From positions 3,372,001-3,436,000 of the forward strand of contig NZ_CP023737.1 of the NCBI RefSeq assembly GCF_002752655.1: a DNA stretch of 64,000 nucleotides, read 5' to 3'. The position numbers and the translations under genes are program-made. Shown here piece after piece: positions 3,617 through 43,087 of the stretch (positions are counted from its first letter, which is position 1; each line of letters opens with the position of its first letter). The DNA comes from Methylosinus trichosporium OB3b (GTDB taxonomy: Bacteria; Pseudomonadota; Alphaproteobacteria; Rhizobiales; Beijerinckiaceae). Under the pieces are notes generated by a model that was given only the letters and a program-made list of their open reading frames with translations, made no database searches and was not told where the DNA came from.

Positions 3617-6493
3617 TCACTCTCCGGGCGCGGCCGGGGCGGCGATGCGGCGGCTGGTCTCGGAGAGGTCGCGGTAGCGCTCCTGCCATTCGGTGGGGCC
3701 GTTGGAGGGCGAGATCTGCACCGCCGTCACTTTGTATTCCGGGCAATTGGTGGCCCAGTCGGAATTATCGGTGGTCACCACATTGGTCTGGCAGAGCGGA
3801 TGGTGGAAGGTCGTGTAGACGACGCCGGGCGCCACGCGATCGGTGATCCTGGCGTGCAAGGTGGTTTCGCCGGCGCGGCTCTGCACGCGCACCCAATCGC
3901 CGTCGCGCACGCCGCGCAGCTCGGCGTCATGCGGGTGAATCTCCAGCACATCCTCCGGATGCCATTGGCTGTTCTCGGTGCGCCGCGTCTGCGCGCCGAC
4001 GTTATATTGCGAGAGAATGCGTCCCGTCGTCAGCAGCAGCGGGAAGCGCGGCCCGGTGCGCTCCTCGGTCGGAATATATTCGGTGATGACGAATTTTCCT
4101 TTGCCGCGCGCGAAGCTCTCGATGTGCATGATCGGCATGCCTTCCGGCGAAGCGTCGTTGCAGGGCCATTGCACCGAGCCGACCTCGTCGAGCTTGGCGT
4201 AGGAGACATTGCGGAAGGCCGGCGTCAGCCGCGCGATCTCGTCCATGATCTCGCTCGGATGCGCATAGGTCCAATTGCAGCCGAGCGCATTGGCGAAGAG
4301 CTGCGTCGCCTCCCAATCGGCGTAGCGCGCCTTGGGGCTCATCACCCGGCGCACGCGCTGGATGCGGCGCTCGGCGTTGATGAAAGAGCCGTCCTTCTCG
4401 AGAAAGCTCGCACCGGGCAGGAACACATGCGCGTAATTGGCCGTCTCGTTGAGGAAGAGATCCTGCACGACGAGACATTCGAGCGCGCCGAGTCCGGCCG
4501 AGACATGCTTGATGTCGGGGTCGGACTGCAGAATATCCTCGCCCTGCACATACATGCCCTTGAACGTTCCCTCGACCGCCGCGTCGAACATATTGGGGAT
4601 GCGCAGGCCCGGCTCCGGATCGAGCGCGACGCCCCACGCCTCCTCGAAGCTCTGGCGCACCTTGTCGTCGGAGACGTGGCGATAGCCGGGGAACTCGTGC
4701 GGGAATGAGCCCATGTCGCAGGAGCCCTGCACATTGTTCTGCCCGCGCAGCGGATTCACGCCGACGCCGCGGCGGCCGAGATTGCCGGTCGCCATGGCGA
4801 GATTGGCGATGCCCATCACCGTGGTCGAGCCCTGGCTGTGCTCTGTGACGCCCAGCCCATAATAGATCGCCGCGCGCCCGCCGCTGGCGTAGAGCCGCGC
4901 CGCGCCGCGAATATCGGCGGCCGCGACGCCGGTGAGCGTCTCGATCGCCTCGGGACTATGGCGTGGCTCGGCGACGAAATCGGCCCAATCTTGAAACTCG
5001 TCCCAGTCGCAGCGCGCGCGCACGAACGCTTCGTTCACGAGCCCTTCGGTGACGATCACATGAGCGAGCGCGGTGACGACCGCGACATTGGTGCCGGGCC
5101 GCAGCGGCAGATGGAAATCGGCCTCGATATGCGGCGAGCGCACGAGCTCGGTGCGGCGCGGATCGATGACGATGAGCTTCGCGCCCTCGCGCAGCCGCTT
5201 CTTCATCCGTGAGCCGAACACCGGATGCGCATCGGTCGGATTGCAGCCTATGACGAGAACGACGTCGGAATCGTCGACGGAATCGAAATCCTGCGTGCCG
5301 GCCGATGTGCCGAACGCCTGGCTCAGCCCATAGCCGGTCGGCGAATGGCAGACGCGCGCGCAAGTGTCGACATTATTGTTGCCGAAGCCGCTGCGAATGA
5401 GCTTCTGGACGAGATAGGTCTCCTCGCTCGTGCAGCGCGAGGAGGTGATGCCGCCGACCGCATTGCGTCCATATTTCGCCTGGATGCGCTTGAACTCCGA
5501 AGCCGCATGGGCGATCGCCTCCTCCCAGGAGACTTCGCGCCAGGGATCGGTGATCTTCTCGCGGATCATGGGGCTCGTCACACGGTCGCGATGCAGCGCA
5601 TAGCCATAGGCGAAGCGGCCCTTGACGCAGCTGTGGCCATGATTGGCCTTGCCGTCCTTCCACGGGACCATGCGGATGATCTCTTCACCGCGCATCTCGG
5701 CCTTGAAGGCGCAGCCGACGCCGCAATAGGCGCAGGTCGTGACCGCCGAATGCTCCGGCTGGCCGTTCTCGATCACCGACGTCTCGATCAAAGTGGCGGT
5801 CGGACAGGCCTGCACGCAGGCGCCGCAGGAGACGCATTCGGACTCGAAATAGGCTTCGTTCACGCCCGGAGAGACGCGGCTGTCGAAGCCGCGCCCGTCG
5901 ATCGTCAGCGCGAAAGTGCCCTGCGTCTCGGCGCAAGCGCGCACGCAGCGATTGCAGACGATGCACTTCGATGGGTCATAAGTGAAATAAGGGTTGGACG
6001 TATCCTTCGGCTTCCACTCGGGATTGATGCGGCCGTGATTGCGCGCGAAGACGTGATTGGCGCCCTGATCGTAGCGCACCTCGCGCAGTGAGACGGCGCC
6101 GGCCATGGATTGCAGCTCGCAATCGCCATTGGCGGCGCAGGTGAGGCAGTCGAGCGGATGATCGGAGATGTAGAGCTCCATGATCCCGCGGCGGATCTTG
6201 TCGAGCCGCGGCGTCAGCGTCTTCACCGCCATGCCCTGCGCCACCGGCGTCGTGCAGGACGCCGGCGTTCCATAGCGGCCCTCGATCTCGATCACGCAGA
6301 GCCGGCAGGAGCCGAAGGCCTTCAGGCTGTCGGTGGCGCAGAGTTTCGGTATGTCGACGCCCGCGGCCGTCGCCGCCCGCATGATCGAGGTTCCCTCGGG
6401 CGCGGAGCATTCCTTCCCGTCGATGGTGAAGCTGACCATCTTCTCCGACGTGGAGGCGGGAGTGCCGAAATCGATTTCCTTGATCAGTGTCAT
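3617..6493 (-). CDS. fdsA: NAD-dependent formate dehydrogenase, molybdenum alpha subunit (FdsA type)
   Basis: Catalytic subunit that oxidises formate to CO2 at a bis-MGD molybdenum centre in the cytoplasm, the last step of C1 dissimilation. The 958 residues match the usual FdsA length. All cluster ligands are visible: [2Fe-2S] C52, C63, C66, C80; His-Cys3 cluster H112, C116, C119, C125; two ferredoxin-like 4Fe-4S sites C177/C180/C183/C187 and C220/C223/C226/C230; and the 4Fe-4S site before the Mo domain, C254/C257/C261/C289. The Mo-binding Cys and catalytic His are C382-H383 in CARVCHSPTGYG. A molydopterin-dinucleotide-binding domain forms the C-terminus. Unusually, no fdsG, fdsB, fdsC or fdsD gene is adjacent, so diaphorase partners must be encoded elsewhere. 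Methionine 19 is an alternative start. Confidence 0.95.
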   Translation of the reverse strand: MTLIKEIDFGTPASTSEKMVSFTIDGKECSAPEGTSIMRAATAAGVDIPKLCATDSLKAFGSCRLCVIEIEGRYGTPASCTTPVAQGMAVKTLTPRLDKIRRGIMELYISDHPLDCLTCAANGDCELQSMAGAVSLREVRYDQGANHVFARNHGRINPEWKPKDTSNPYFTYDPSKCIVCNRCVRACAETQGTFALTIDGRGFDSRVSPGVNEAYFESECVSCGACVQACPTATLIETSVIENGQPEHSAVTTCAYCGVGCAFKAEMRGEEIIRMVPWKDGKANHGHSCVKGRFAYGYALHRDRVTSPMIREKITDPWREVSWEEAIAHAASEFKRIQAKYGRNAVGGITSSRCTSEETYLVQKLIRSGFGNNNVDTCARVCHSPTGYGLSQAFGTSAGTQDFDSVDDSDVVLVIGCNPTDAHPVFGSRMKKRLREGAKLIVIDPRRTELVRSPHIEADFHLPLRPGTNVAVVTALAHVIVTEGLVNEAFVRARCDWDEFQDWADFVAEPRHSPEAIETLTGVAAADIRGAARLYASGGRAAIYYGLGVTEHSQGSTTVMGIANLAMATGNLGRRGVGVNPLRGQNNVQGSCDMGSFPHEFPGYRHVSDDKVRQSFEEAWGVALDPEPGLRIPNMFDAAVEGTFKGMYVQGEDILQSDPDIKHVSAGLGALECLVVQDLFLNETANYAHVFLPGASFLEKDGSFINAERRIQRVRRVMSPKARYADWEATQLFANALGCNWTYAHPSEIMDEIARLTPAFRNVSYAKLDEVGSVQWPCNDASPEGMPIMHIESFARGKGKFVITEYIPTEERTGPRFPLLLTTGRILSQYNVGAQTRRTENSQWHPEDVLEIHPHDAELRGVRDGDWVRVQSRAGETTLHARITDRVAPGVVYTTFHHPLCQTNVVTTDNSDWATNCPEYKVTAVQISPSNGPTEWQERYRDLSETSRRIAAPAAPGE

Positions 6494-6738
6494 GGCCGCG
6501 CCCCGGGAACTGCCTTCGCTACGTTATGAATATCGATTGCATAGCGATAATCAATAATCGAGTCCGGTATGGCCATCGCCTTTTTCTATCGTCGATAGGT
6601 GTTAGATCGTTTAACGATATTTATCATATAGATATCATGTAATAGGTCGTGCGGTTATATAGCGATGCGAGACTTCGGCCTCGCTCTTGCTTCCCCCCTT
6701 GCGCCGGCGCGACGTCGGCGCCAAACGCAGGGCCGCCG
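6494..6738 (-). promoter_or_regulatory. AT-rich divergent regulatory region upstream of fdsA
   Basis: This 245-base stretch is markedly richer in A+T than its surroundings. It is dense in ATCG-type dyads: CTATCG-T-CGATAG near 6587-6599, repeated TCGATT/AATCGA elements around 6530-6560, and GATAT...ATATC around 6617-6637. Such clustered partial dyads with T...A ends suit a LysR-type regulator such as FdsR, but the regulator is inferred. The region also carries the upstream sequence of the divergent DUF938 gene. Confidence 0.5.
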
Positions 6739-13970: not shown

Positions 13971-14072
13971 CTAGAGCGCTTTCCGATCGAACGGAATCGT
14001 TCGATCGATCCGAATTCGCTCAAAAGAAAGAATGGCTCGAGCGCTATCCGATCGGATTGGATAGCGCTTCGA
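13971..14072. repeat. GCTTTCCGATCGAA repeat, copy 1
   Basis: A repeat with the inner dyad CGATCGAACGGAATCGTTCGATCG, then TTCGCTCAAAAGAA and a second dyad GCGCTATCC...GGATAGCGC. Related copies lie at 15661-15702 and 23870-23936. It fills most of the gap between the pseudouridine synthase and the small membrane protein gene. Confidence 0.7.
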
Positions 14073-30251: not shown

Positions 30252-32408
30252 TCAGAAGGTGGTCTTCGCGCTGAGATAGAAGCTGCGGCCGGGCTCGGGG
30301 AAGCCGTCGGTCAGCGTGTAGGCCGTGTCGAACAAATTGCGCACGCCGGCGGTGAGCTTCAGATTCTCGTGGACCTGATAATCCGCCTGCATGTGGGTGA
30401 GGAAATAGGCGCCGGTCCGGTAATAGAGCGATCCGCTGGTGTTCGAGGTCCAGCGATTGCTGGCCATCTCGATATTGGGCGACAGAGTGAGCTCGGCGAT
30501 CGGCCGATAGGCGGCGAAGAGGAACATTTTGGCGTCCGGCACGCCGATCGGCTGGAAATTGGCGATATAGGGCGCGTTCACGCGGCGGCGCATCAGAGTG
30601 AGATTGCCGCCGAGCGAGAAATTCTCCGCCGGCGCGTAATCGACCGTGATCTCGCCGCCCCAGAAGCGGCCGTCGCCGACATTCTGGCTCTGCGTGACGC
30701 CAGCGCCGAATTGGGGAACCGGGACGCTCTGAATGAGATCGCTGACGATGCTGTGAAACACGTCGATGGCGACGCGGCCGCCCGGCGCGAACTCGCTCGA
30801 CCAGCCGAGATCGAAATTGACGGCGCGCTCCGGCCGCAGCGACGGATTGGAGGTGGCGCCGCCGAAACGCGTGCTGAAGCGCTCGAACAGAGTGGGAAAG
30901 CGGGCGCGGTCGGAGACGTTGAAATAGACCTTGTCCGTGTCGTTGTAGCGCCAGATCGCCGCGCCCTGATAATTGGGCGCCGTCATGTCGCGCAGCGGAT
31001 AGTTCAGCACGCCGGAGCCGACCACATAATCCTCCGCCTTGCGCAGATGGCGCCAGTCATAGGCGAAGCCCTGCACGAGATCGATGTCCTTGGTCGGATG
31101 GAAGGTGTTCTCGATCGCCAGTGAATACGTGTCCTCCTGCGCATAGACGGTCGGCTGGGTGAAGCAGACGACATTGGTCGCGCAGCCGGCCGAGCCGCCG
31201 GAGGCGTTCACGCCATAATATTCCTGCCAGGCGCCATGCTCGTCGAAGCGATAATGTCCGGCGAGCTTCAGCGTGTCGACGCCCTCGATGTCGGCGCCGG
31301 CCTCGACATCGGCGCCGAGCGCATAATCGGCGTAATAGCTGCGGAACGCTTTCTGCGTTCGCTGAATCGTCAGGTCGGCGTCGTTGTAGGAGAACAGGCC
31401 ATTGTCGAACTTGCTCCAATAGGCCTTGGTCTTCAGATAGAAATCGTCGCCGAGCTTGGTGTTGGACAGGAAATAGAGATTCTGCACGCGCCAATAGGGC
31501 CAGCTCCAGTATTTCTGGCTGGCGACCGGATCGGTGATATGGAGCGGCGCGCTCTTCTTGCCATCCTGCCGAACGAAGCTGAGCGAATATTCATCGGTGG
31601 CGTTGGGCGTGTAGCCGGCCTTGGCGTTCACGTTCCAATCATAGGCGCCCGAATTGGCGCGTTGACCCGCGCCCTGATTGGCGGTCGGCGTGAAGCTCTC
31701 CGGCAGCATCCATCCACGCAGGTCGCGCCAGGCGCCGCTCACCTGGAGATAGTAATTCTCCTGCTTCGTTCCGATGAGCCCATAGGTCTTGATCCCCTCA
31801 TAGGTTCCGTCGCGGCCGAATTCGAGGCCGGTGCGCATTTCGCCCTCGATCTCGCGGGTCGGCTTGCGCGAGACGAGATTGATCTGTCCGCCCATGCCGC
31901 CGGGGCCGTCGAGCACCGAGACATAGCCCTTGGCGATCTGCACGGAGGCGATGTCGGGCGTCAGGAAGCGCGCGAAATCGAGCCTGTTGTCGGCGGGCAG
32001 ATAGACGCGCACGCCGTCGATGGTGAGCGGAACCTGCCAGCGATCGAAGCCGCGCACATAAATGTTCTGCTCATTGCGCGAGCCGCCGGTCGTGTTGCTG
32101 TTCACGCCTGGAGCGAGATTGATCGCGCGATCGAGCGAGTCGCGCTGATAGGTTTCGATCTGCCGATTGCTCAGCACAGAGCCGCCGAAGGAATCGGTCG
32201 TTTGCCGCGGCGCCGGGCCGTCGTCCTTTTTCTGCGGCGTCTTCTTTTCCGGCGTGCTCATGCGCTGCGCGCCGACATGGATCTCGCCGAGATCGAAAGG
32301 CTGCGGCTGATCCATGGCGAAGGCGCTCGCCGTCATGGCGCTCGCAGTCATGGCGGCGACGCTCGCAGCGGCGAAGGTGAAGATAAGAGTGGCGTCGTGC
32401 TTCATCAT
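30252..32408 (-). CDS. TonB-dependent outer membrane receptor
   Basis: A 718-residue energy-dependent outer membrane transporter. It has a signal peptide, then a plug domain with ETYQRDSLDRAINLAPGVNS, NIYVRGFDRWQVPLTIDGVRV and GPGGMGGQINLVSRKP. A 22-strand barrel follows with FPTLFERFSTRFG, NPSLRPERAVNFDLGW and the terminal beta-signal ending in Phe (SFYLSAKTTF). Full length. It is third in an operon behind a Tat-exported binding protein and a di-heme protein, downstream of modE. By context the ligand is probably a molybdate, tungstate or other metal complex; this is inference. Met 41 or 42 of the open frame may start; GGGGGATT precedes 32408. Confidence 0.93.
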   Translation of the reverse strand: MMKHDATLIFTFAAASVAAMTASAMTASAFAMDQPQPFDLGEIHVGAQRMSTPEKKTPQKKDDGPAPRQTTDSFGGSVLSNRQIETYQRDSLDRAINLAPGVNSNTTGGSRNEQNIYVRGFDRWQVPLTIDGVRVYLPADNRLDFARFLTPDIASVQIAKGYVSVLDGPGGMGGQINLVSRKPTREIEGEMRTGLEFGRDGTYEGIKTYGLIGTKQENYYLQVSGAWRDLRGWMLPESFTPTANQGAGQRANSGAYDWNVNAKAGYTPNATDEYSLSFVRQDGKKSAPLHITDPVASQKYWSWPYWRVQNLYFLSNTKLGDDFYLKTKAYWSKFDNGLFSYNDADLTIQRTQKAFRSYYADYALGADVEAGADIEGVDTLKLAGHYRFDEHGAWQEYYGVNASGGSAGCATNVVCFTQPTVYAQEDTYSLAIENTFHPTKDIDLVQGFAYDWRHLRKAEDYVVGSGVLNYPLRDMTAPNYQGAAIWRYNDTDKVYFNVSDRARFPTLFERFSTRFGGATSNPSLRPERAVNFDLGWSSEFAPGGRVAIDVFHSIVSDLIQSVPVPQFGAGVTQSQNVGDGRFWGGEITVDYAPAENFSLGGNLTLMRRRVNAPYIANFQPIGVPDAKMFLFAAYRPIAELTLSPNIEMASNRWTSNTSGSLYYRTGAYFLTHMQADYQVHENLKLTAGVRNLFDTAYTLTDGFPEPGRSFYLSAKTTF

Positions 32409-32436
32409 CCAATCCCCCGATTGGTTGCAAGGGCTG

Positions 32437-33750
32437 TCAAAGAGAGTCGAGGAAGGCGAGCAGCGCTTCCCGTTCGGCGCGGGGCAGAGCGCGAAAGCGC
32501 CCTTGCGCGTCCTCCGCCTCGCCGCCATGCCAGAGGATCGCCTCGGCCGTCGTGGCGGCGCGTCCGTCGTGCAGCAGGCCTGTCGTGGCGAAGCGCCCGG
32601 CGAGGCCGAGGCCCCAGAGCGGCGGCGTGCGCCAGTCGCGCGGGCCGGCCTCGAAATCGGCGCGGCCGTCGGCGAGGCCTTCGCCCATGTCGTGCAGCAG
32701 CAGGTCGGTATAGGGATGGATCTCCGCGCCGCTCAGCGCCGGCGCAAAATCCACGGCGCCGAGCCGCAGCGTCTCGCGGTGGCAGGATGAGCAGCCGAGC
32801 GCCGCGAACAAAGTCGCGCCGCGCCGCACGCGCGCATCATCGGTCTGGCGTCGCGCCGGAACGGCGAGGCCGCGAACATAGTCGAGCACGGCGCCGAGCT
32901 GCTTCGGGGAGAGCTCGGCGCCCGCGCCGGCCGCCGCGCGGCAGGCGAGCTGCGCGGGCGCGCAGCCGGCCTCCGGGAACAGCGCCGAGGCGACGCCGAT
33001 GTCCTCGGCGAAGGCGGCGGCGATCTGCTGACGGAGAGTCGGCTGATTGGCCTTGAGGCCGAAGCGGCCGAGCCTGATGCGGCCGGCCGCCATGTCATAG
33101 ACATGGTTGGGCCGGCCGCCGCCCGGGCCCGCCGCATGGGAGATGATTTCGTCGTCCGGAACGGCCTCGAGCAGGCCGAGGCCGAAGACCGGAGGCGCAT
33201 TGCGCAGCGACATCCGCGTCTCCGGACCGATCGGCCCATAGGCGAGATCGCGAAAGGAGAGGCGGGGGCGGCGCATGGTGACGATCTCGCCGTCGTCGAG
33301 ACGCGTCGCGAAGGCGTCGAAGGCGAGAATGGCGCGGCCTTCGCCCGGAACGCCGGGTATTCCCTCCGGATTGAGCTGCGCCCCATAGATCGGATGCGAG
33401 AGCGGCCCGCCCTCGGCGTCGCGTCCCTCGACGCCGAGGCGCAGGACCATGGCGCGCGCGACGCCATTCTCCGCGTCGGGCGTCGGGCCGCGGCCGTTCT
33501 TCACATGGCAGGCGATGCAGGAGAGCCGGTTGTAGAGCGGTCCGAGGCCGGTCAGTTCGGACGGCTCGGCCGATGGGCCGATGATCCAGGCGCGGCGGAA
33601 CAGGCTGTTTCCCACGCGGAAGGCGCTCTCGAGCGTCTCGTCGAGGCCGGGGAGGGGCCGAGAGAAGATTTCGCCGTCGATCTGCGGCGTTTCGTATGGC
33701 GCGCCGGCCGTGAGCAGGATGAGCGCGGCCGCCGCGAGAAGGAGTCTCAC
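32437..33750 (-). CDS. di-heme cytochrome-like protein (DUF1111, putative peroxidase/oxidoreductase)
   Basis: A 437-residue exported c-type protein. It has a signal peptide (MRLLLAAAALILLTAGAP), a first haem motif CIACH (residues 78-82) after LTGLGPLYNRLS, and a second CSSCH in ATLFAALGCSSCHRETLRLG. LHDGRAATTAEAILWHGGEA near the end is a family hallmark. DUF1111 proteins resemble di-heme peroxidases and are often encoded with imelysin or metal uptake genes. The GTG start overlaps the TGA of the upstream binding protein (GTGA), which means translational coupling. The TonB receptor follows 28 bases later. It may change the redox state of an imported metal or ligand. Confidence 0.9.
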   Translation of the reverse strand: MRLLLAAAALILLTAGAPYETPQIDGEIFSRPLPGLDETLESAFRVGNSLFRRAWIIGPSAEPSELTGLGPLYNRLSCIACHVKNGRGPTPDAENGVARAMVLRLGVEGRDAEGGPLSHPIYGAQLNPEGIPGVPGEGRAILAFDAFATRLDDGEIVTMRRPRLSFRDLAYGPIGPETRMSLRNAPPVFGLGLLEAVPDDEIISHAAGPGGGRPNHVYDMAAGRIRLGRFGLKANQPTLRQQIAAAFAEDIGVASALFPEAGCAPAQLACRAAAGAGAELSPKQLGAVLDYVRGLAVPARRQTDDARVRRGATLFAALGCSSCHRETLRLGAVDFAPALSGAEIHPYTDLLLHDMGEGLADGRADFEAGPRDWRTPPLWGLGLAGRFATTGLLHDGRAATTAEAILWHGGEAEDAQGRFRALPRAEREALLAFLDSL

Positions 33751-35087
33751 AGCCGCGCGTCGAGCGAGGCGAGCAGCCGCGTCGCTTCCGCCCGCGCGGC
33801 GCCGATTTCGGCGCGCCAGCGCCCCGCGAGATCGGGGTCTTTGACGTCGCGTCCGCTGAAACGGTCGAGCAGCGTCGGCTCCGACGCTTCGGCGGCGGAA
33901 ACCGGAACGAAGCCGGCGAGCTTGCGCGCTTCGGCGACGATCGCGGCGCCCCCGGCGGCGGGCGCGGCGGCGAGCCGCGCCTCGGCCGCATGGAGCGCGC
34001 GCCAGAAAGCGACGGTCTCCGCATGGCGCTCGGCGATGGAAAGATCGAACAGAACGCTGATGAGGCCGGGACGTCGCCGCCCGATCTCGGCGTCATAGCT
34101 GAAGAAGGAGCCCTCGGGCAGAGCGAAAGGATCGACGATCCGCACGGCCTTGCCGGCATAGGCGTCCGGCCGCGCCGGATGACGGCTGCTGTCGGCCTCC
34201 ATCAACAGCTTCTGGCCCTTGGTCGAGAGCGCGAAATCGACGAAGGCGCGCGCCGCCTCGGGACGGCGCGTCGCCGCTGTGACCGCGATATGGCCGGGCA
34301 GAAAGGCTGTGCGCTCGGGATAGGCGAAGCCGACGCCCGCGCCATTGGCCTGCGCGCCCAGCGCCAGGAAGTCGATGGTGAGGCCGAGCGCGGCGCGCCC
34401 CTCCTTCACCGCGCCGGTGGGGCCGGGGCCGGAGCCCGAAAGCTGCGCGCCGCCGGCGATCTCGCAGAGCAGCGCCCAGCCGCGCTCCCAGCCTTCGGCC
34501 TGAAGGATGATGTCGTAGAGCGCCGGCGAGAAGCCGACCTTGCCGGCGAGCGGCATGGCGATGCGGCCGGCGAGGGCCGGCGCGGCGAGATCGCTCCAGC
34601 GCTTCGGGACCGCGGCGCCGAGCGCCGCGAGCGCCGCCGGATCATAGACGATCCCATAGCCCGCGAGGTCGTAGGCTTCGAACATGCCCTTCGGATCGGA
34701 AATCGGCTGGGCGCCGAGACGGCCCGGCAGAGCGGCGCGATCGACCGCCAGCGGGCGGAAGGCGCCGCTGTCCCGCAATATAGGAAAATTGCTGAGCGAA
34801 GGCGCCCAACACACGTCGACGCCGCCCTGATCCGGCTGGCTCAGCAGAGCGAGCGCGTCGCGCGACTGCTTCCAGACGAATTGGACATGCAGATCCGGAT
34901 GCGCCTTTTCGAACTCGGCCTCGTAACGTGTCGTCAGCTCTTCGGGAAAGCTGGTGACGACCACCAGCGCGTCGCCCGCGGCGCGCGCCGGGCGGGAGAC
35001 GAGAGCGGCCCCGAGGGCCGCAGGCAGTCCGGCGAGCAGGGCGCGGCGGCTGGGGCGGAGGGATTTCGCTATGTGTTCGAAGTGCAT
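33747..35087 (-). CDS. Tat-exported ABC-type substrate-binding protein
   Basis: A 446-residue periplasmic binding protein of the ferric/AfuA-like group. The N-terminus has a twin-arginine signal (SLRPSRRALLAGLPAALGAA, ending ARAAG), then LVVVTSFPEELTTRYEAEFEKAHPDL, which starts the binding fold. AYDLAGYGIVYDPAAL and LPLAGK-like MPLAGKVGFSP follow. It has a C-terminal extension of about 110 residues beyond the usual 340. No ABC permease or ATPase is adjacent. It is the first gene of the operon with the di-heme protein and the receptor. A promoter directly abuts the ATG and a ModE-like box overlaps the start. Confidence 0.87.
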   Translation of the reverse strand: MHFEHIAKSLRPSRRALLAGLPAALGAALVSRPARAAGDALVVVTSFPEELTTRYEAEFEKAHPDLHVQFVWKQSRDALALLSQPDQGGVDVCWAPSLSNFPILRDSGAFRPLAVDRAALPGRLGAQPISDPKGMFEAYDLAGYGIVYDPAALAALGAAVPKRWSDLAAPALAGRIAMPLAGKVGFSPALYDIILQAEGWERGWALLCEIAGGAQLSGSGPGPTGAVKEGRAALGLTIDFLALGAQANGAGVGFAYPERTAFLPGHIAVTAATRRPEAARAFVDFALSTKGQKLLMEADSSRHPARPDAYAGKAVRIVDPFALPEGSFFSYDAEIGRRRPGLISVLFDLSIAERHAETVAFWRALHAAEARLAAAPAAGGAAIVAEARKLAGFVPVSAAEASEPTLLDRFSGRDVKDPDLAGRWRAEIGAARAEATRLLASLDARL

Positions 35088-35092
35088 AACGA
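35066..35092. promoter_or_regulatory. ModE-like operator overlapping the start of the binding-protein operon
   Basis: Left half TCGCTATGTG and right half TGCATAACGA are separated by 7 bases (TTCGAAG). Against the E. coli ModE consensus as I remember it (TCGCTATATA-N6/7-TATATAACGA), 16 of 20 positions match, including both outer 7-base blocks exactly. The site covers the predicted transcription start and the first codons, a position that fits repression by ModE-molybdate. The modE gene is immediately upstream. Confidence 0.7.
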
Positions 35093-35094
35093 AA

Positions 35095-35123
35095 ACATAA
35101 AGCCGCCATCGTCGCCCTGTCAA
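35095..35123 (-). promoter_or_regulatory. sigma-70-type promoter, predicted leaderless transcript
   Basis: On the minus strand TTGACA (35123-35118) and TTATGT (35100-35095) are separated by exactly 17 bases. The expected start point, 6-8 bases past the -10 element, falls on or next to the A of the ATG at 35087. There is no Shine-Dalgarno before that ATG, so the mRNA is probably leaderless. Confidence 0.65.
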
Positions 35124-35162
35124 TCGACAGGGGCGCCGAAAGTGGCGGCGATCTGCTCGAGA

Positions 35163-35969
35163 TCAGTCGACGGCGAGAATCACATCCGAGGGCTTGAATG
35201 TGGCGACGATCTTGTCGCCCTCGGCGATGGAGAGGTCTTCCGCGGTCTGGCGCGGGACGACGCAGCTCATCGTCTTGCCGGAGCCGATGTCGACGAGCAC
35301 CTCGCTGTTGCGCTCGGCGTCGATGCGCCGACGCACGACGCCGGCGAAGCGGTTGCGCGCGCCGCTCGGCGGCGGCTCGGCCCCCGCGAGATCCGCGGGC
35401 GCGAGGCCGACGAAGGAGGATTTGATCAGCGCCAGCGCCTTGCGCCCGGGCGCGAGGCCGAGCTCGTCGGCGGCGTCATTGGTCACGACGGAGAGAATAT
35501 AGGTCTCCGGCGACACGCGCAGCGTGACCTCGACGTCGACCGGCCAGCGCTTGACCTGCACCACCTCGGTTTGAAAGATGTTCCGGGCTGAAATCTTGAG
35601 GCCGACGCTCCACAGCAGAAAATCGTCCTGATCCTCGAGCCCCTCCTCGGCGATCAGCGAGGAGATGCGCGAGAGCCGCTCCTCGAGCCGGTGGAAGGTG
35701 GCGATGAGCCGGCGCCCCTCCGCCGTCACCTCGGCGCCGCCGCCCGAGCGGCCGCCGGCCTTGGTGACGAAGGCCGGGCTCGGCAGAAGATTGTTGATGG
35801 AGTTCACCGCGTCCCAGGCGGTCTTGTAGCTGAAGCCGACCGCCTTGGCCGCCTTGGTGATGCTGCCATGCTCGGCGACGGCCTCCAGCAGCTTGATGCG
35901 ATCGCGCCCCACCAGAAAGCGCCCTTCGCGGCGCAGCGCCAACAAAGCGTCGATCTTGTTCTCGGTCAT
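35163..35969 (-). CDS. modE: molybdate-responsive transcriptional regulator ModE
   Basis: A 268-residue regulator with the standard ModE architecture. The N-terminal winged helix (residues 20-110) has [37 protein letters not shown] and the [19 protein letters not shown] wing. Two TOBE/Mop molybdate-binding domains follow (about 128-195, with [20 protein letters not shown], and 205-268). ModE dimers bind molybdate or tungstate and usually repress uptake genes. It lies 75 bases upstream of the binding-protein operon on the same strand, and a ModE-like box covers that operon's start. No modABC genes are in the window. Confidence 0.9.
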
Positions 35970-38246: not shown

Positions 38247-40418
38247 TCAGAATTGGGCGTGCAAGCGCAGTCCGAACACATTCACCGGCCCGCGTGCGAC
38301 ATTATGTCCCGGGTTGCCGATGAACTGATAGTCGAGCGTCAGCTCGATTCCGTCGCGCATATTATATTTGTAATAGGTTTCGAAGACCTTCTCGCCGGCG
38401 TAGGAGAGTCCGCCGTCGCCGATATAGACGCTGAGGCCGCCGAGGCCGAAATAGCGGATGCGTGGCCCCGCGAGGCCCGAGAACACGCCGGCGAGGCCGA
38501 TCTCGTCCTTGTCGCGGCCCCAGAGCGCGCCCTGCAGGGTGACGCCGGTGGCCAGCGAGCGGTCGATGTCGGTGAAGTCCACCGTCTCGAAACGACCGTC
38601 CGCCATGCTGGCGCGCAGGAAGAAGCCGATCTCCTCCGAGATCTGCTGCTGCACATTGATTCCGCCGCCGAGCTTGAGATGACGCCGGCGCAGCCAGGGC
38701 AGATTCACATCGGGCGGCAGCGCGCCGGTGAGCAGCGCATAGTTGACGGCGTCGCCGACCGTGGCGAAATTGCCATTGTCGCCATAGCCGAGAAATTTGA
38801 TCACGCCCGGCTGGCGGAACAGCTCGTAGCGCCCCTCCAATTCGACGACGCCCATGAACTGCCGGCCGATCTGCGGCTCGATATTGGGGCTGTTGGGAAT
38901 GTCCGAGAGCTGGAACAATCCGGCGCGCGCCGTCCACCAATCCTGCTTCCACTCTGCCGCGATTCCGTGGGTGTAGCCCCAGGCGTCGGCGGCATAATCG
39001 AAAGCGCCCATCGAGTTGACGCCGAAATTCAAGAAGCCGGTGTTGGGATCATGGGCGTATTTATTGTCGTCGAACACGTCCGGCACGGCGAACTTGCCGA
39101 TGGTGAGGACGATGCGATCCTTGTCGACCTTGCCAGAGAGCTGGTTCTGCGTCGATTCGAGCACCTCGTTGAAGGAGCCCGTCTCCGGATCGCTCACCTT
39201 GGCGTCGCCGTCGAGCCCGACGATCTGGCGCAGGAAATAGCGCTGGAACCGCATATAAGGCGCGGCGCGCCCGACCTTGGCGACGGCGCCGTCGACGAAA
39301 GAGGCGGCGCCGATCGAATTGGCGAGGCCATAGCCGACGTCGATCTCGGGATTGAGATAGACGGCGCCGCCGTCCCAGAGCCGCAGGCCGAAGAAGAGAT
39401 TGCTGGTCGAGCCGGCGTTGGCGAGGCCGTTCGGCGGAAAGCTGTTCTCTCCGCTATATTGCGCGCGGAACTTCGGATAACCCTGCACGACGGCGGTGGT
39501 CTGGCCGTGGAAGCTGTAGCGCTCCTCCTGCGATTGATCGTCGCTCTTCTCGTCGTTTTCGCCCTTCTTCCCCTTCTTCTCGTCCTTTTTCTCGTTATTC
39601 TCGTCCTTCTCGTTCTTCTTGTCCTTCGTGCTCGCGTCCGCGGCGCTCGCGCCGTCGCCCGCCTCCTCCTGAGGGTCGAAACGATAATCGAGCCCGAGCC
39701 GCAGCAGATGCGCTTCGCTGCGCTGGCGCACGTCGAAGGCCGAGGAGGAGTAATCGTCGAAATGGCGAATCTGCAATTGCTGATTGACATAGGTATATTC
39801 GAGACGCGCCGACCAGCGGTCGAACAGCGCCTGCTCCACGCCGGCGCCGATCACGAATTTCATGCGCGAAGAGTCCGACACCGGCGCGAAGAAGGGGCCG
39901 GCGACGCCCGGAGTCACGGTGAGGAGAGAGGCGCCGCGCCAGCCGCCCGCGGCGACGCCGGCGGCCGCATAGACGAGCGTGCGGCCGAAGGCGTAGCCGA
40001 GCCGGCCGCGAACGCTCGCGACATATTGGCCGTTCTCCTGCGTCGTGAGCCGGCGCGTCGCGGCGCCGAGCGCGCCAAAGCCGGCGAAGACGCCGTCGTC
40101 GCCCCTGCGCAGATCGAGAAAGTTCAGCTCGGACTCGAGGCCATAGACCCAGGGCCCCTTCTGCCAGTCATAGCCGATCCGCGCGCCGAAGCTGACGCCG
40201 GCGCGATCACGGCCGGGCGCGATCAGCGCATGGGCCGTCGGCGAAAGACCCGCGGCGGCTTCGACGCGGCCGCCGCTCGCGACCGGCAAGCCCACGCCCG
40301 CATCGACGCCGAGGTGAAGCCCGGCCCAGGAGAAGATCGGCGGCGGCGCCGGCTCCGCGCAGGCGCCGGCGCTCGCGGCGAGGAGCGGAGGCAGGGTCGC
40401 GAAGAGGTGGAGTCTCAT
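38247..40418 (-). CDS. two-domain outer membrane protein: OmpA-like barrel fused to OprB-like porin (copy A)
   Basis: A 723-residue outer membrane protein. After the signal peptide, residues of about 25-250 form an Omp25/OmpA-type 8-strand barrel (GLHLGVDAGVGLPVASGG, RAGVSFGARIGYDWQKGPWVYGLE, LEYTYVNQ). A highly charged Lys/Glu/Asp/Asn linker (about 250-300) follows. The C-terminal ~420 residues are an OprB/carbohydrate-selective-porin-like barrel (RQIVGLDGDA, NTGFLNFGVNSMGAFDYAADAWGYTHGI) ending in FGLRLHAQF. The adjacent upstream gene on the same strand is a paralogue. Two barrels in one chain is unusual. The solute is unknown. Confidence 0.82.
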   Translation of the reverse strand: MRLHLFATLPPLLAASAGACAEPAPPPIFSWAGLHLGVDAGVGLPVASGGRVEAAAGLSPTAHALIAPGRDRAGVSFGARIGYDWQKGPWVYGLESELNFLDLRRGDDGVFAGFGALGAATRRLTTQENGQYVASVRGRLGYAFGRTLVYAAAGVAAGGWRGASLLTVTPGVAGPFFAPVSDSSRMKFVIGAGVEQALFDRWSARLEYTYVNQQLQIRHFDDYSSSAFDVRQRSEAHLLRLGLDYRFDPQEEAGDGASAADASTKDKKNEKDENNEKKDEKKGKKGENDEKSDDQSQEERYSFHGQTTAVVQGYPKFRAQYSGENSFPPNGLANAGSTSNLFFGLRLWDGGAVYLNPEIDVGYGLANSIGAASFVDGAVAKVGRAAPYMRFQRYFLRQIVGLDGDAKVSDPETGSFNEVLESTQNQLSGKVDKDRIVLTIGKFAVPDVFDDNKYAHDPNTGFLNFGVNSMGAFDYAADAWGYTHGIAAEWKQDWWTARAGLFQLSDIPNSPNIEPQIGRQFMGVVELEGRYELFRQPGVIKFLGYGDNGNFATVGDAVNYALLTGALPPDVNLPWLRRRHLKLGGGINVQQQISEEIGFFLRASMADGRFETVDFTDIDRSLATGVTLQGALWGRDKDEIGLAGVFSGLAGPRIRYFGLGGLSVYIGDGGLSYAGEKVFETYYKYNMRDGIELTLDYQFIGNPGHNVARGPVNVFGLRLHAQF

Positions 40419-40450
40419 GGCGTCGTTCGCTGCGAATCACATTCTGATGT

Positions 40451-40520
40451 CTCGAGAGCGAGTCTGAAGGCTCGCGGTCCGAGAGCGGCCCTGGACCGCG
40501 AGCCTTCAGGCTCGCTCTTG
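40451..40520. repeat. CCTGAAGGC palindromic repeat, copy 3
   Basis: CGAGTCTGAAGGCTCGCGGTCC and GGACCGCGAGCCTTCAGGCT form a near-perfect palindrome with a 12-base centre (GAGAGCGGCCCT). It sits between the two paralogous porin genes. Confidence 0.85.
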
Positions 40521-40622
40521 CTTCCCTTCCGTCCGGATGACGCACGCCACCCGGTTTCGTCGCCGTCTCGCACAAGAGAGCGTTACAGTCGAGCCGAATG
40601 ACGTCTTCGTGACTCCCTGCGG

Positions 40623-42788
40623 TCAGAACATCGCGCGCAGCCTCACGCCGAAAATATTGACCGGGCCGCGCGCGACATTGTGCGAGGGATTGCCGATGAA
40701 CTGATAATCGAGCGAGAGGTCGACGCCCTCGCGCAGACGATATCGGTAATAGCCCTCGATCACCTTCTCGCCGGCATAGGTCATCGCGCCGTCGCCGATG
40801 AGAAGGCCCGTTCCGCCGAGCGCGTAATAGCGCGCCTGCGGGCCGGAGAGGCCGGAGAACACCATTGCGGCGCCGAACTCGTCCTCGGCGCGGCCCCAGA
40901 GCCCGCCGCGGGCGACGAAGCCGAGCGCCAGCGAGCGCTGAATATCGCTGAAATCGATGAATTCGAACCGCCCGTCGGAGATGCTGGCGCGCAGGAAGAA
41001 GCCGAGCTCGGACGAGAGCTCCTGCTCCAGATTGAGCCCTCCGCCGAGCTTGAGATGGCGCTTGCGCAGCCATGGATAGCTCGGGTCCGGCGGAAACTCG
41101 CCGGCGAGGAAGGCATAGTTCACGACGTCGCCGAGATCGGCGAAATAGCCGTTGTCGCCATAGCCGAGCAGTCGCAGCGCGCCCGGCCGGCCGAACAGCT
41201 CATAGCGGCTCTCGAGCTCGGCGACGGCGCAGAACTGGCGGCCGATGCGCGGCTCGATCGTCGGCCAGTTCGGATATTGCGAGAGCTGAAACAGTCCCGC
41301 CCGCGCGGTCCACCGATCCTGCTTCCATTCGACCGCCGCGCCATAGGTGTAGCCCCACCAGTCGGCGCCATAATCGAAAGCGCCCATCGCATTGACGGCG
41401 ATGTTGAGGAAGCCCGTGGTCGGATCATGGGCGTATTTGTTGTTGTCGAAAATATCGGGCGCGGCGAATTTGCCGATGGTGAAGGTCAGCCGATCCTTGG
41501 GGACCTTGCCGGCGAGCTGATTCTGCGCGGTCTGCAGCGTCTCGTCATAGCCGCCGAATTCGGGATCGGCGCCGCTCGCCGACCCGCCGAGGCCGATGAT
41601 CTGGCGCAGAAAATAGCGCTGGAAACGCAGATAGGGAGCCGAGGCGCCGACCCTCGCCACGGCGCCGTTGACATAGGCGGCGGCGCCGACGGAATCGGCG
41701 AGCGCATGGCCGGCGTTGATCTCGGGATTGAGATAGGCGGCGGCGCCCTCCCAGAGGCGCATGCCGAAGAAGAGATCGTTCGTCGCTCCGACGTCGGCGC
41801 GGCCATTGGGCGGCAGGCTGAAAAGGCCGCTGTAGAGGGCCGGAAATTTCGGATAGCCCTGCAGCACGGCGGTCGTCTGCCAATGAAAGTTGAAATTTTC
41901 CGGCTCCGCCGTTTCCTCGTCCTTCTCTTTGTCCTTCCCCTTCCCTTCTTCGTCGTCGTCCGTCTTCGAGGCGGCCGTCTCGCGGCCGCTCTTCGTCTTC
42001 GTTTCGTCGCGCGGCTGCTGCGGCGTTTCGGCCGAGCTGGTGCGCTCTTCCGGCGCGAAGCGATAGTCGAGGCCGAAGCGCAGAATGTGCGATTCGCTGC
42101 GCTGGCGCGCCAAGAAGGGCGGCGTCGCCTCGGCGGTCTCGTATAGCTGCTTCTGCGATTGCTGGTTCAAATAGAGATATTCGAGTCGCGCCGACCAATG
42201 GTCGCCGAGCGCGCGCTGCACGCCGGCGCCGATCGCATATTTCATGCGCGATGACTGCGAGAGGGGCGCCGAATAGAGCGCGAGCGACGGCAGCCGCGCC
42301 AGATTGGAGGCCCCGCGCCAGCCGCCGGCGGCGACGCCGCCGGTCCCATAGACGAGCCAGGGGCCGTAGGCGCGCCCGAGCCGGCCGCGCAGGCTCATGA
42401 AGCTATTGCTCGACTCGTCGGCGGTGAGGGCGTAGCCGCCGAGGCCGAAGGACGAGGGTGCGGCGAAGAGTCCGGTCGCGGCGCGCCGCAAGCCGAGATA
42501 ATTGAAATCGGTCTCGACGCCATAGACGATCTCGCCCTTGCGCCAGTCATAGCCGATCTGCGCGCCGATGCTCGCGCCGGCCCGGTCATGGCTCGGCGCG
42601 GCGAGGCCGAAGGCGTCGGCGCCGAAGCCCTCGAGGCGGCCGCCGCTCGAGAGCGGAAAGCCGGCGCCGGCGTTGACGCCGATATGCATGCCCTCCCACA
42701 GGGTGGGGGGCGACAGAGCGGTCTCGGCGGCGCGCGGCGTCGCGGCGGCCGCAGCCAGCGCAGCCGTCGCCAGAAATATTCGTCTCAT
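40623..42788 (-). CDS. two-domain outer membrane protein: OmpA-like barrel fused to OprB-like porin (copy B)
   Basis: A 721-residue paralogue of the downstream gene with the same order: signal peptide, 8-strand barrel (GMHIGVNAGAGFPLSSGG, ASIGAQIGYDWRKGEIVYGVE, LEYLYLNQQ), charged linker (DETKTKSGRETAASKTDDDE...KDKEKDEE) and OprB-like barrel ending FGVRLRAMF. The two genes are clearly a tandem duplication. The linkers are the most divergent part while the barrel ends are nearly identical. ATG 42788 gives a clean signal peptide; 42821 is an in-frame alternative with GAGGAG upstream. Confidence 0.82.
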   Translation of the reverse strand: MRRIFLATAALAAAAATPRAAETALSPPTLWEGMHIGVNAGAGFPLSSGGRLEGFGADAFGLAAPSHDRAGASIGAQIGYDWRKGEIVYGVETDFNYLGLRRAATGLFAAPSSFGLGGYALTADESSNSFMSLRGRLGRAYGPWLVYGTGGVAAGGWRGASNLARLPSLALYSAPLSQSSRMKYAIGAGVQRALGDHWSARLEYLYLNQQSQKQLYETAEATPPFLARQRSESHILRFGLDYRFAPEERTSSAETPQQPRDETKTKSGRETAASKTDDDEEGKGKDKEKDEETAEPENFNFHWQTTAVLQGYPKFPALYSGLFSLPPNGRADVGATNDLFFGMRLWEGAAAYLNPEINAGHALADSVGAAAYVNGAVARVGASAPYLRFQRYFLRQIIGLGGSASGADPEFGGYDETLQTAQNQLAGKVPKDRLTFTIGKFAAPDIFDNNKYAHDPTTGFLNIAVNAMGAFDYGADWWGYTYGAAVEWKQDRWTARAGLFQLSQYPNWPTIEPRIGRQFCAVAELESRYELFGRPGALRLLGYGDNGYFADLGDVVNYAFLAGEFPPDPSYPWLRKRHLKLGGGLNLEQELSSELGFFLRASISDGRFEFIDFSDIQRSLALGFVARGGLWGRAEDEFGAAMVFSGLSGPQARYYALGGTGLLIGDGAMTYAGEKVIEGYYRYRLREGVDLSLDYQFIGNPSHNVARGPVNIFGVRLRAMF

Positions 42789-43087
42789 GATGCTCGTCGT
42801 CGATCGCTCGGCGATTCGCATCCTGTCACGGCTCCTCGCCGGTATGGGCGATGGACTTCACTTAAGGCGCGACGCCCGATCCGCTCTCACCGAGCGTGGG
42901 CGTGCGAGCCGAGATCGGACGCTATGATTGGCGCTGCGCGCCCGATTCGAGTAGTATGCGTGCGAGCCGAAGCCTCGACCATTCCCGCGAAATTCGGCTG
43001 GCTCGCTTCTTGCCACGCAATGCTCACGGGCGCGCCGCGTCGCGCGAACGGCCGCCCTTGCCGGAAACCCCTCGAGGAGAGCGACAC

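Follow-up and report, generated by a model that had tools for sequence, protein, structure and literature searches.

What does a ModE-type regulator govern where no modABC genes adjoin it? The question arises at a four-gene operon of Methylosinus trichosporium OB3b, located in the 64,000-nucleotide window analyzed here (genome G000, contig C1, positions 3372001–3436000; the genome comprises 5.18 Mb on four contigs). On the minus strand of this window, modE (35163–35969) is followed by genes for a periplasmic binding protein (here SBP; 33747–35087), a di-heme oxidoreductase-family protein (DHOR; 32437–33750) and a TonB-dependent receptor (TBDR; 30252–32405), with the GTG start of DHOR overlapping the SBP stop by four bases. 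A sequence-only reading of this DNA had described the same-strand set as modE, a Tat-type binding protein, a DUF1111 di-heme protein and a TonB receptor, and all four genes were confirmed, the GTG overlap included. Its statement that modABC was lacking held for the surroundings of the operon, but not for the genome, as contig C2 carries modABC and another modA-type gene is found on C1. From comparative sequence analysis we consider it probable (roughly 0.7) that the operon is a ModE-controlled molybdenum (Mo) acquisition system working through the receptor.

The regulator belongs to the ModE family. Its product (268 aa) combines a winged-helix domain with two C-terminal TOBE/Mop domains and aligned end to end with E. 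coli ModE (1b9m; residues 7–266, E = 1.6e-25). Matches were obtained to TOBE (PF03459) and, above cut-off, to Mop (TIGR00638); the score against ModE_repress (TIGR00637, 94.1 bits) was slightly under the cut-off of 98.5, and that against the equivalog NF007957 (134.3 bits) was below its cut-off of 369. Full-length ModE was present in all 14 sampled SBP-bearing genomes, our own included.

A ModE-type operator of the form CGNTAT-N13-ATANCG, correct at all ten fixed bases, lies over the SBP start codon (35067–35091, CGCTATGTGTTCGAAGTGCATAACG), in agreement within one base with the 27-base ModE-like site that had been proposed for the operon start. Read on the minus strand (CGTTATGCACTTCGAACACATAGCG), the operator starts two bases past a –10-like TATGTT (35094–35099, minus strand), which in turn is found 18 bases downstream of a –35-like TTGACA (35118–35123, minus strand). 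Both promoter elements were read by eye, and TTGACA recurs in most of the relatives printed. The palindrome thus has the half-sites and the promoter-proximal position of a putative ModE recognition site, and its location just downstream of the –10 box predicts repression by Mo-ModE. An mRNA started here would have little or no leader sequence. The overlap between operator and start codon is shared by the other Methylosinus orthologs and by Blastochloris (L175). Furthermore, SBP codon 6, which falls inside the operator, is ATA in 7/7 Methylosinus orthologs, although ATA accounts for just 56 of the 825 isoleucine codons in the window genes (called with a simple gene finder); we thus read its constancy as selection on the DNA. 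Four further sequences with ATA at codon 6 were left out of this count, as they had been chosen for a box overlapping the frame and L119 (8/10 box) has ACG at the corresponding place.

To describe conservation of the box, we scored the best CGNTAT-N12/13/14-ATANCG match over its ten fixed bases between –150 and +45 of each SBP start and derived p-values from equal windows of the same locus. Out of 49 SBP upstream regions, five identical ones were dropped and 44 kept, the start of L119 being set by hand. A score of 9 or 10 was reached in 29/44 distinct upstreams, and p ≤ 0.05 in 28/44. These high-scoring boxes span Methylosinus, Methylocystis and Blastochloris, where the spacer is 13, as well as Azospirillum, Reyranella, Dyella and a Rhodospirillaceae metagenome-assembled genome, where it is 12, the length also found in E. 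coli, whose modA operator reaches 10 under this scoring. By contrast, 39 control upstreams of SBP homologs from another system (30–36% identical across the order; two-domain permease, ATPase, sensor kinase and regulator, assigned by eye) yielded neither a score of at least 9 nor p ≤ 0.05 in any case. Since the loci are related, the trials are not independent, and the weight rests on the spread over seven genus-level groups. Where the receptor gene is detached in Azospirillum, it carries a box of its own in 5/5 loci (L166, L168, L171, L181 and L184; score 9–10, given without null).

Genome-wide scans placed the operator among few exact matches. CGYTAT-N13-ATARCG without mismatch occurred at four sites in the whole genome, while CGNTAT-N13-ATANCG gave seven sites versus none for the reversed control pattern: two hairpin repeats, two intragenic matches (L018 and L186, set aside as lying inside predicted genes), the SBP operon, fdhA2 and a FecCD-type permease gene on contig C2. 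The hairpin repeats, which also account for two of the four stricter matches, are near-identical long structures (window 14042–14066 and C1:3646042–3646066) that hold a perfect ModE-like outer palindrome. They were rejected as ModE sites because each is a copy of an unrelated, longer hairpin whose inner arms read CCGATC; the pair is probably a dispersed repeat and a trap for scans of this kind. The variant CRNTATG-N11-CATANCG was found at only two sites in the genome, the SBP start and upstream of fdhA2, and at one or more sites in 12 of 16 sampled genomes, with zero matches to the reversed control in each of the 16; many of the sites in other genomes are not near recognized Mo genes. The N12 form yielded five sites in our genome, and 0/4 examined precede a recognizable Mo gene (L188 is intragenic, L190 precedes a cupredoxin/FTR1-like pair, and the other two are L189 and L191), the fifth site being L187. 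The box at the start of the genome's own modA scored 8, a value matched by 19/44 windows of the modA locus, and that upstream of modE scored 6, so that the box test gives no support for ModE acting on its own gene or on modABC.

The sequence-only reading had called for a search for the same gene order with ModE boxes across methylotroph genomes, and similar sets recur in several genera. SBP/(DHOR)/TBDR clusters were found in Methylosinus, Methylocystis, Beijerinckia, Azospirillum, Blastochloris, Rhodovulum, Reyranella and Dyella, the nearest named SBP relative found being that of Methylosinus sp. Sm6 (86%). A family survey of 199 genomes with an SBP identity threshold of at least 46% recovered the protein in 6/8 of the further genus-g1 genomes listed; five g5 genomes also have it, G238 (g5) does not, and two g125 genomes complete the set. 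A single scan of genome contigs (alignment A1) supplied 34 named loci, in pieces of varying length, some of which end at contig ends. With the window ModE as query, a ModE-type gene was detected in 19/34 named loci versus 0/29 control loci (573 kb and 426 kb, respectively). At least one Mo-related gene (ModE, ModA-like, ModB, NifQ, YqeB or Mop) was present in 25/34 named pieces, a figure that describes rather than tests, as some queries were drawn from the named loci themselves; on the 29 control loci, the Mo-gene queries returned permease-superfamily matches only. For instance, in Azospirillum melinis (L168) the TBDR, NifQ (PF04891, 111.6 bits) and a ModA-like protein, whose best models are molybdate-binding with scores below their cut-offs, share one strand, with SBP-DHOR in convergent orientation. 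Azospirillum sp. B506 (L184) has a Mo_ABC_porter-model permease and a ModA above cut-off divergent from SBP, and its NifQ match is a fragment. A TonB-family gene follows TBDR in four Azospirillum loci (L165, L177–L179). Most named Methylocystis loci carry a YqeB relative (148.9 bits, below the cut-off of 220) or ModE alone, divergent from SBP, and Beijerinckia mobilis (L169, the gene also in L125) has a single Mop/TOBE protein in this position. G431 (L128) has a second set, in which a less closely related SBP-DHOR pair precedes genes for a ModA-like protein (below cut-offs) and a receptor; with a score of 7, it has no ModE box. The large Azospirillum plasmids NZ_CP007796, NZ_CP032325 and NZ_CP022369 also encode SBP relatives, which are about 52% identical across part of the protein.

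Several observations weigh against a Mo acquisition system. Fifteen of the 44 SBP upstreams score below 9, the Rhodovulum locus L174 reaching 6, and the fetched pieces of 9/34 named loci hold no Mo gene; six of these nine keep a 9–10 box (L170, L176–L180), and L154, L167 and L171 have neither Mo gene nor box at SBP. ModE occurs without an operon-type SBP in G414 and G238. Genes resembling hyp hydrogenase-maturation genes (by eye) are convergent beside the cluster in Methylocystis L121 and L123. In Rhodovulum and Blastochloris, SBP and TBDR have no DHOR next to them, so this protein looks helpful rather than essential. The four operon genes encode no permease, ATPase or inner-membrane transporter, and SBP matches no ModA model and is not of the ModA family.

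Among other explanations, the main rival is a tungsten (W) system that feeds a W-dependent formate dehydrogenase (FDH) when Mo is short and is repressed by Mo-ModE; we regard it as unlikely, but as one to be taken seriously. It draws on a second box in the window (6522–6546), 28 bases upstream of fdhA2 (3617–6493, minus strand), which encodes a stand-alone FDH alpha subunit (TIGR01591, 945.7 bits). The sequence-only reading had mistaken this gene for fdsA; the true fdsA, to which fdhA2 is 82% identical, lies about 74 kb from the ModE operon in an fds-like operon at about C1:3480–3488 kb (regulator, fdsG, fdsB, fdsA and an fdhD-like gene, named by eye). From its box, fdhA2 is a possible second ModE target, and it may supply a substitute FDH alpha subunit when Mo runs short. 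One report (PMC3615186) describes M. trichosporium OB3b as having an fdhA 81% identical to fdsA, with only fdsA expressed. A ModE-repressed fdhA2 would be silent in Mo-replete medium, which fits this expression, but the rarity of the box tempers the argument. Only 2/8 fdhA2 genes bear one (our own, L192, and that of G446), whereas it was found at 0/15 readable fdsA genes, one further fdsA start (L208) not being found. The ModE-fdhA2 link is thus seen only in the closest pair, which also counts against the W reading. A further point in favor of W is an SBP paralog in G366 (59%, L118; box score 7); the gene divergent to it encodes an FDH of NuoE/F-fused type, and moeA lies farther out. We take this FDH to resemble the W-containing Fdh1 of Methylobacterium, and its presence would keep W in play. 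On the other hand, NifQ serves the Mo nitrogenase, and its occurrence beside the cluster in Azospirillum leads us to lean towards Mo over W.

Second, the operon could be an iron system in which TBDR receives a ferric siderophore and ModE control reflects the Fe-S need of Mo enzymes or Mo binding by siderophores. This is suggested by the binding protein itself. SBP (446 aa; SBP_bac_6, PF13343) bears SRRALLAG, a twin-arginine-like motif, at its N-terminus, and its structural model (mean pLDDT 89.3) showed the periplasmic binding protein fold, matching FbpA, FutA, AfuA and MctA in Foldseek with E-values of about 1e-15 to 1e-12. FbpA binds iron through His, Glu and two Tyr. In SBP, however, the four ligand positions align to P48, P96, F240 and L241 (profile alignment, read by eye), and these replacements argue that it is no canonical iron binder. 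It also differs from these four proteins by a C-terminal helical extension of about 100 residues and by having no ABC partner in the operon. TBDR (717 aa) contains a plug and a beta-barrel (PF07715 and PF00593, above cut-off). It matched 28 NCBIfam receptor models, and for none of the 25 shown did its score attain the curated cut-off. The nearest models were heme and siderophore receptors, which would speak for iron, but all were far below cut-off. Together with the conserved ModE boxes and Mo-gene neighbors, the ligand replacements make an iron system improbable.

Third, the methanotroph host brings to mind a copper system akin to the methanobactin receptor with its MbnP/MbnH pair. PMC3621798 describes methanobactin operons (MbnT/MbnP/MbnH) in which a methanotroph TBDR is found near a di-heme protein and a partner, as is the case here; they differ in their copper substrate and in the di-heme family. 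DHOR belongs to PF06537 (261 bits), the family formerly called DUF1111, and possesses two c-type heme sites (CIACH and CSSCH). Both CXXCH sites are fully conserved in 19/20 alignment rows, the reading frame of L154 departing before the second site. Its weak structural model (pLDDT 73.9) matched no known fold at E ≤ 0.001. Heading the list were two di-heme proteins, hydrazine synthase (E = 1.3e-3) and cytochrome c peroxidase (E = 5.2e-2). Neither SBP nor DHOR matched the MbnP/MbnH models TIGR04039/TIGR04052 at E ≤ 1e-3 (NCBIfam), and the cluster occurs with Mo neighbors in non-methanotrophs, leaving copper a very slim chance. Equally slim is the chance that the palindrome is a coincidence and modE merely the neighbor of an operon with which it has nothing to do. 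Although the window alone, with two mismatches allowed, held 9 matches versus 5.45 expected (9/100 shuffles reach 9; not significant), the significance of the palindrome rests on exact matches and conservation rather than on this count, the boxes being kept in several genera versus 0/39 controls and appearing separately where TBDR forms a separate unit.

We therefore return to the Mo acquisition system. The earlier proposal of Mo or W uptake is supported as far as ModE-controlled acquisition is concerned, by the conserved boxes, the clean control and the Mo-gene neighbors; the chelate, the redox step and Mo as opposed to W are what we infer. In a more specific form, for which the odds are only somewhat better than even, the operon would be devoted to importing a Mo chelate (molybdophore) across the outer membrane with TonB energy, using its own periplasmic carrier of non-ModA type plus a di-heme redox protein. 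It would thereby supply the outer-membrane step that has been missing from ModE-controlled Mo uptake in methanotrophs and nitrogen fixers. With ample cytoplasmic molybdate, Mo-ModE would occupy the operator over the SBP start and block the promoter, which would open when Mo is scarce. TBDR, energized through TonB, would then bring into the periplasm a form of Mo, most likely a chelate, whose scarcity or size precludes entry through porins, and SBP would pick it up there. A redox step by DHOR may free the metal, or modify the chelate or SBP, and molybdate would be handed to inner-membrane importers encoded elsewhere, such as modABC on contig C2.

Molybdate is generally assumed to diffuse through the outer membrane. 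In accordance with the earlier remark that no described system with this gene set was known, we found no described ModE-TonB system among the open-licence papers listed, as judged by titles and abstract openings. The operon shares with E. coli ModE/modABC the ModE helix-turn-helix core sequence, the two Mop domains and the operator half-sites. Yet a TBDR-SBP-DHOR set is controlled here instead of an ABC importer, and the operator lies over the start codon with a spacer of 13 in Methylosinus, compared with 12 in E. coli. To ModABC/WtpABC it is linked by the same metal, as judged from the neighborhood, since ModA-like and ModB genes adjoin the Azospirillum cluster; in contrast to them, it has no permease or ATPase and its SBP is of the SBP_bac_6/FbpA kind, so that it does not qualify as a ModABC system. 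An outer-membrane molybdate step is also described for Pseudomonas aeruginosa, where ModA secreted by the type VI secretion system acts with the outer-membrane protein IcmP (PMC8602904); that system uses a protein carrier and IcmP instead of a TonB receptor, and the available portion of the source shows no ModE link.

Further loci bear Mo-related features. On contig C2 (180000–196000; L099), modABC stands beside a divergent Alginate_exp porin gene, together with genes for a TonB receptor, a Peripla_BP_2 binding protein, a weak radical-SAM match and a FecCD permease with its ATPase. An exact CGNTAT-N13-ATANCG box is located immediately upstream of the FecCD gene. This locus could be a second Mo system, presumably similar to MolABC. 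In a g5 genome (G475 C1:3512901; L136), an exact box (CGATATGTATAGCATTTACATATCG) precedes another Alginate_exp porin, which, with the modABC-porin pair of our own genome, hints at a Mo-linked anion porin. In G472 (C5:4185223; L146), a box much like the SBP operator (CATTATGTATCGTTGTTACATAGCG) precedes the gene for a small protein that is rich in cysteine and matches CxxCxxCC below threshold. In our own genome, another ModE-like helix-turn-helix protein, a shorter one, is encoded at C1:3553000–3561000 (L101), along with a TOBE-type gene on the opposite strand and a gene resembling YqeB (by eye). Next to the operon itself, queF is divergent on the far side of modE and a glycosyltransferase gene is convergent past TBDR. 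Two tandem outer-membrane proteins, 59% alike, are encoded at 38247–42821 of the window, the first matching OprB porin and an N-terminal outer-membrane-protein barrel domain.

If the proposed role is true, natural Mo scarcity would be severe enough to pay for active uptake across the outer membrane. The finding would name a receptor family to seek and point to a new chelator, and it would give this TBDR clade and its DHOR protein a testable role. Mo supply would then be linked to methane oxidation, through formate dehydrogenase, and to nitrogen fixation.

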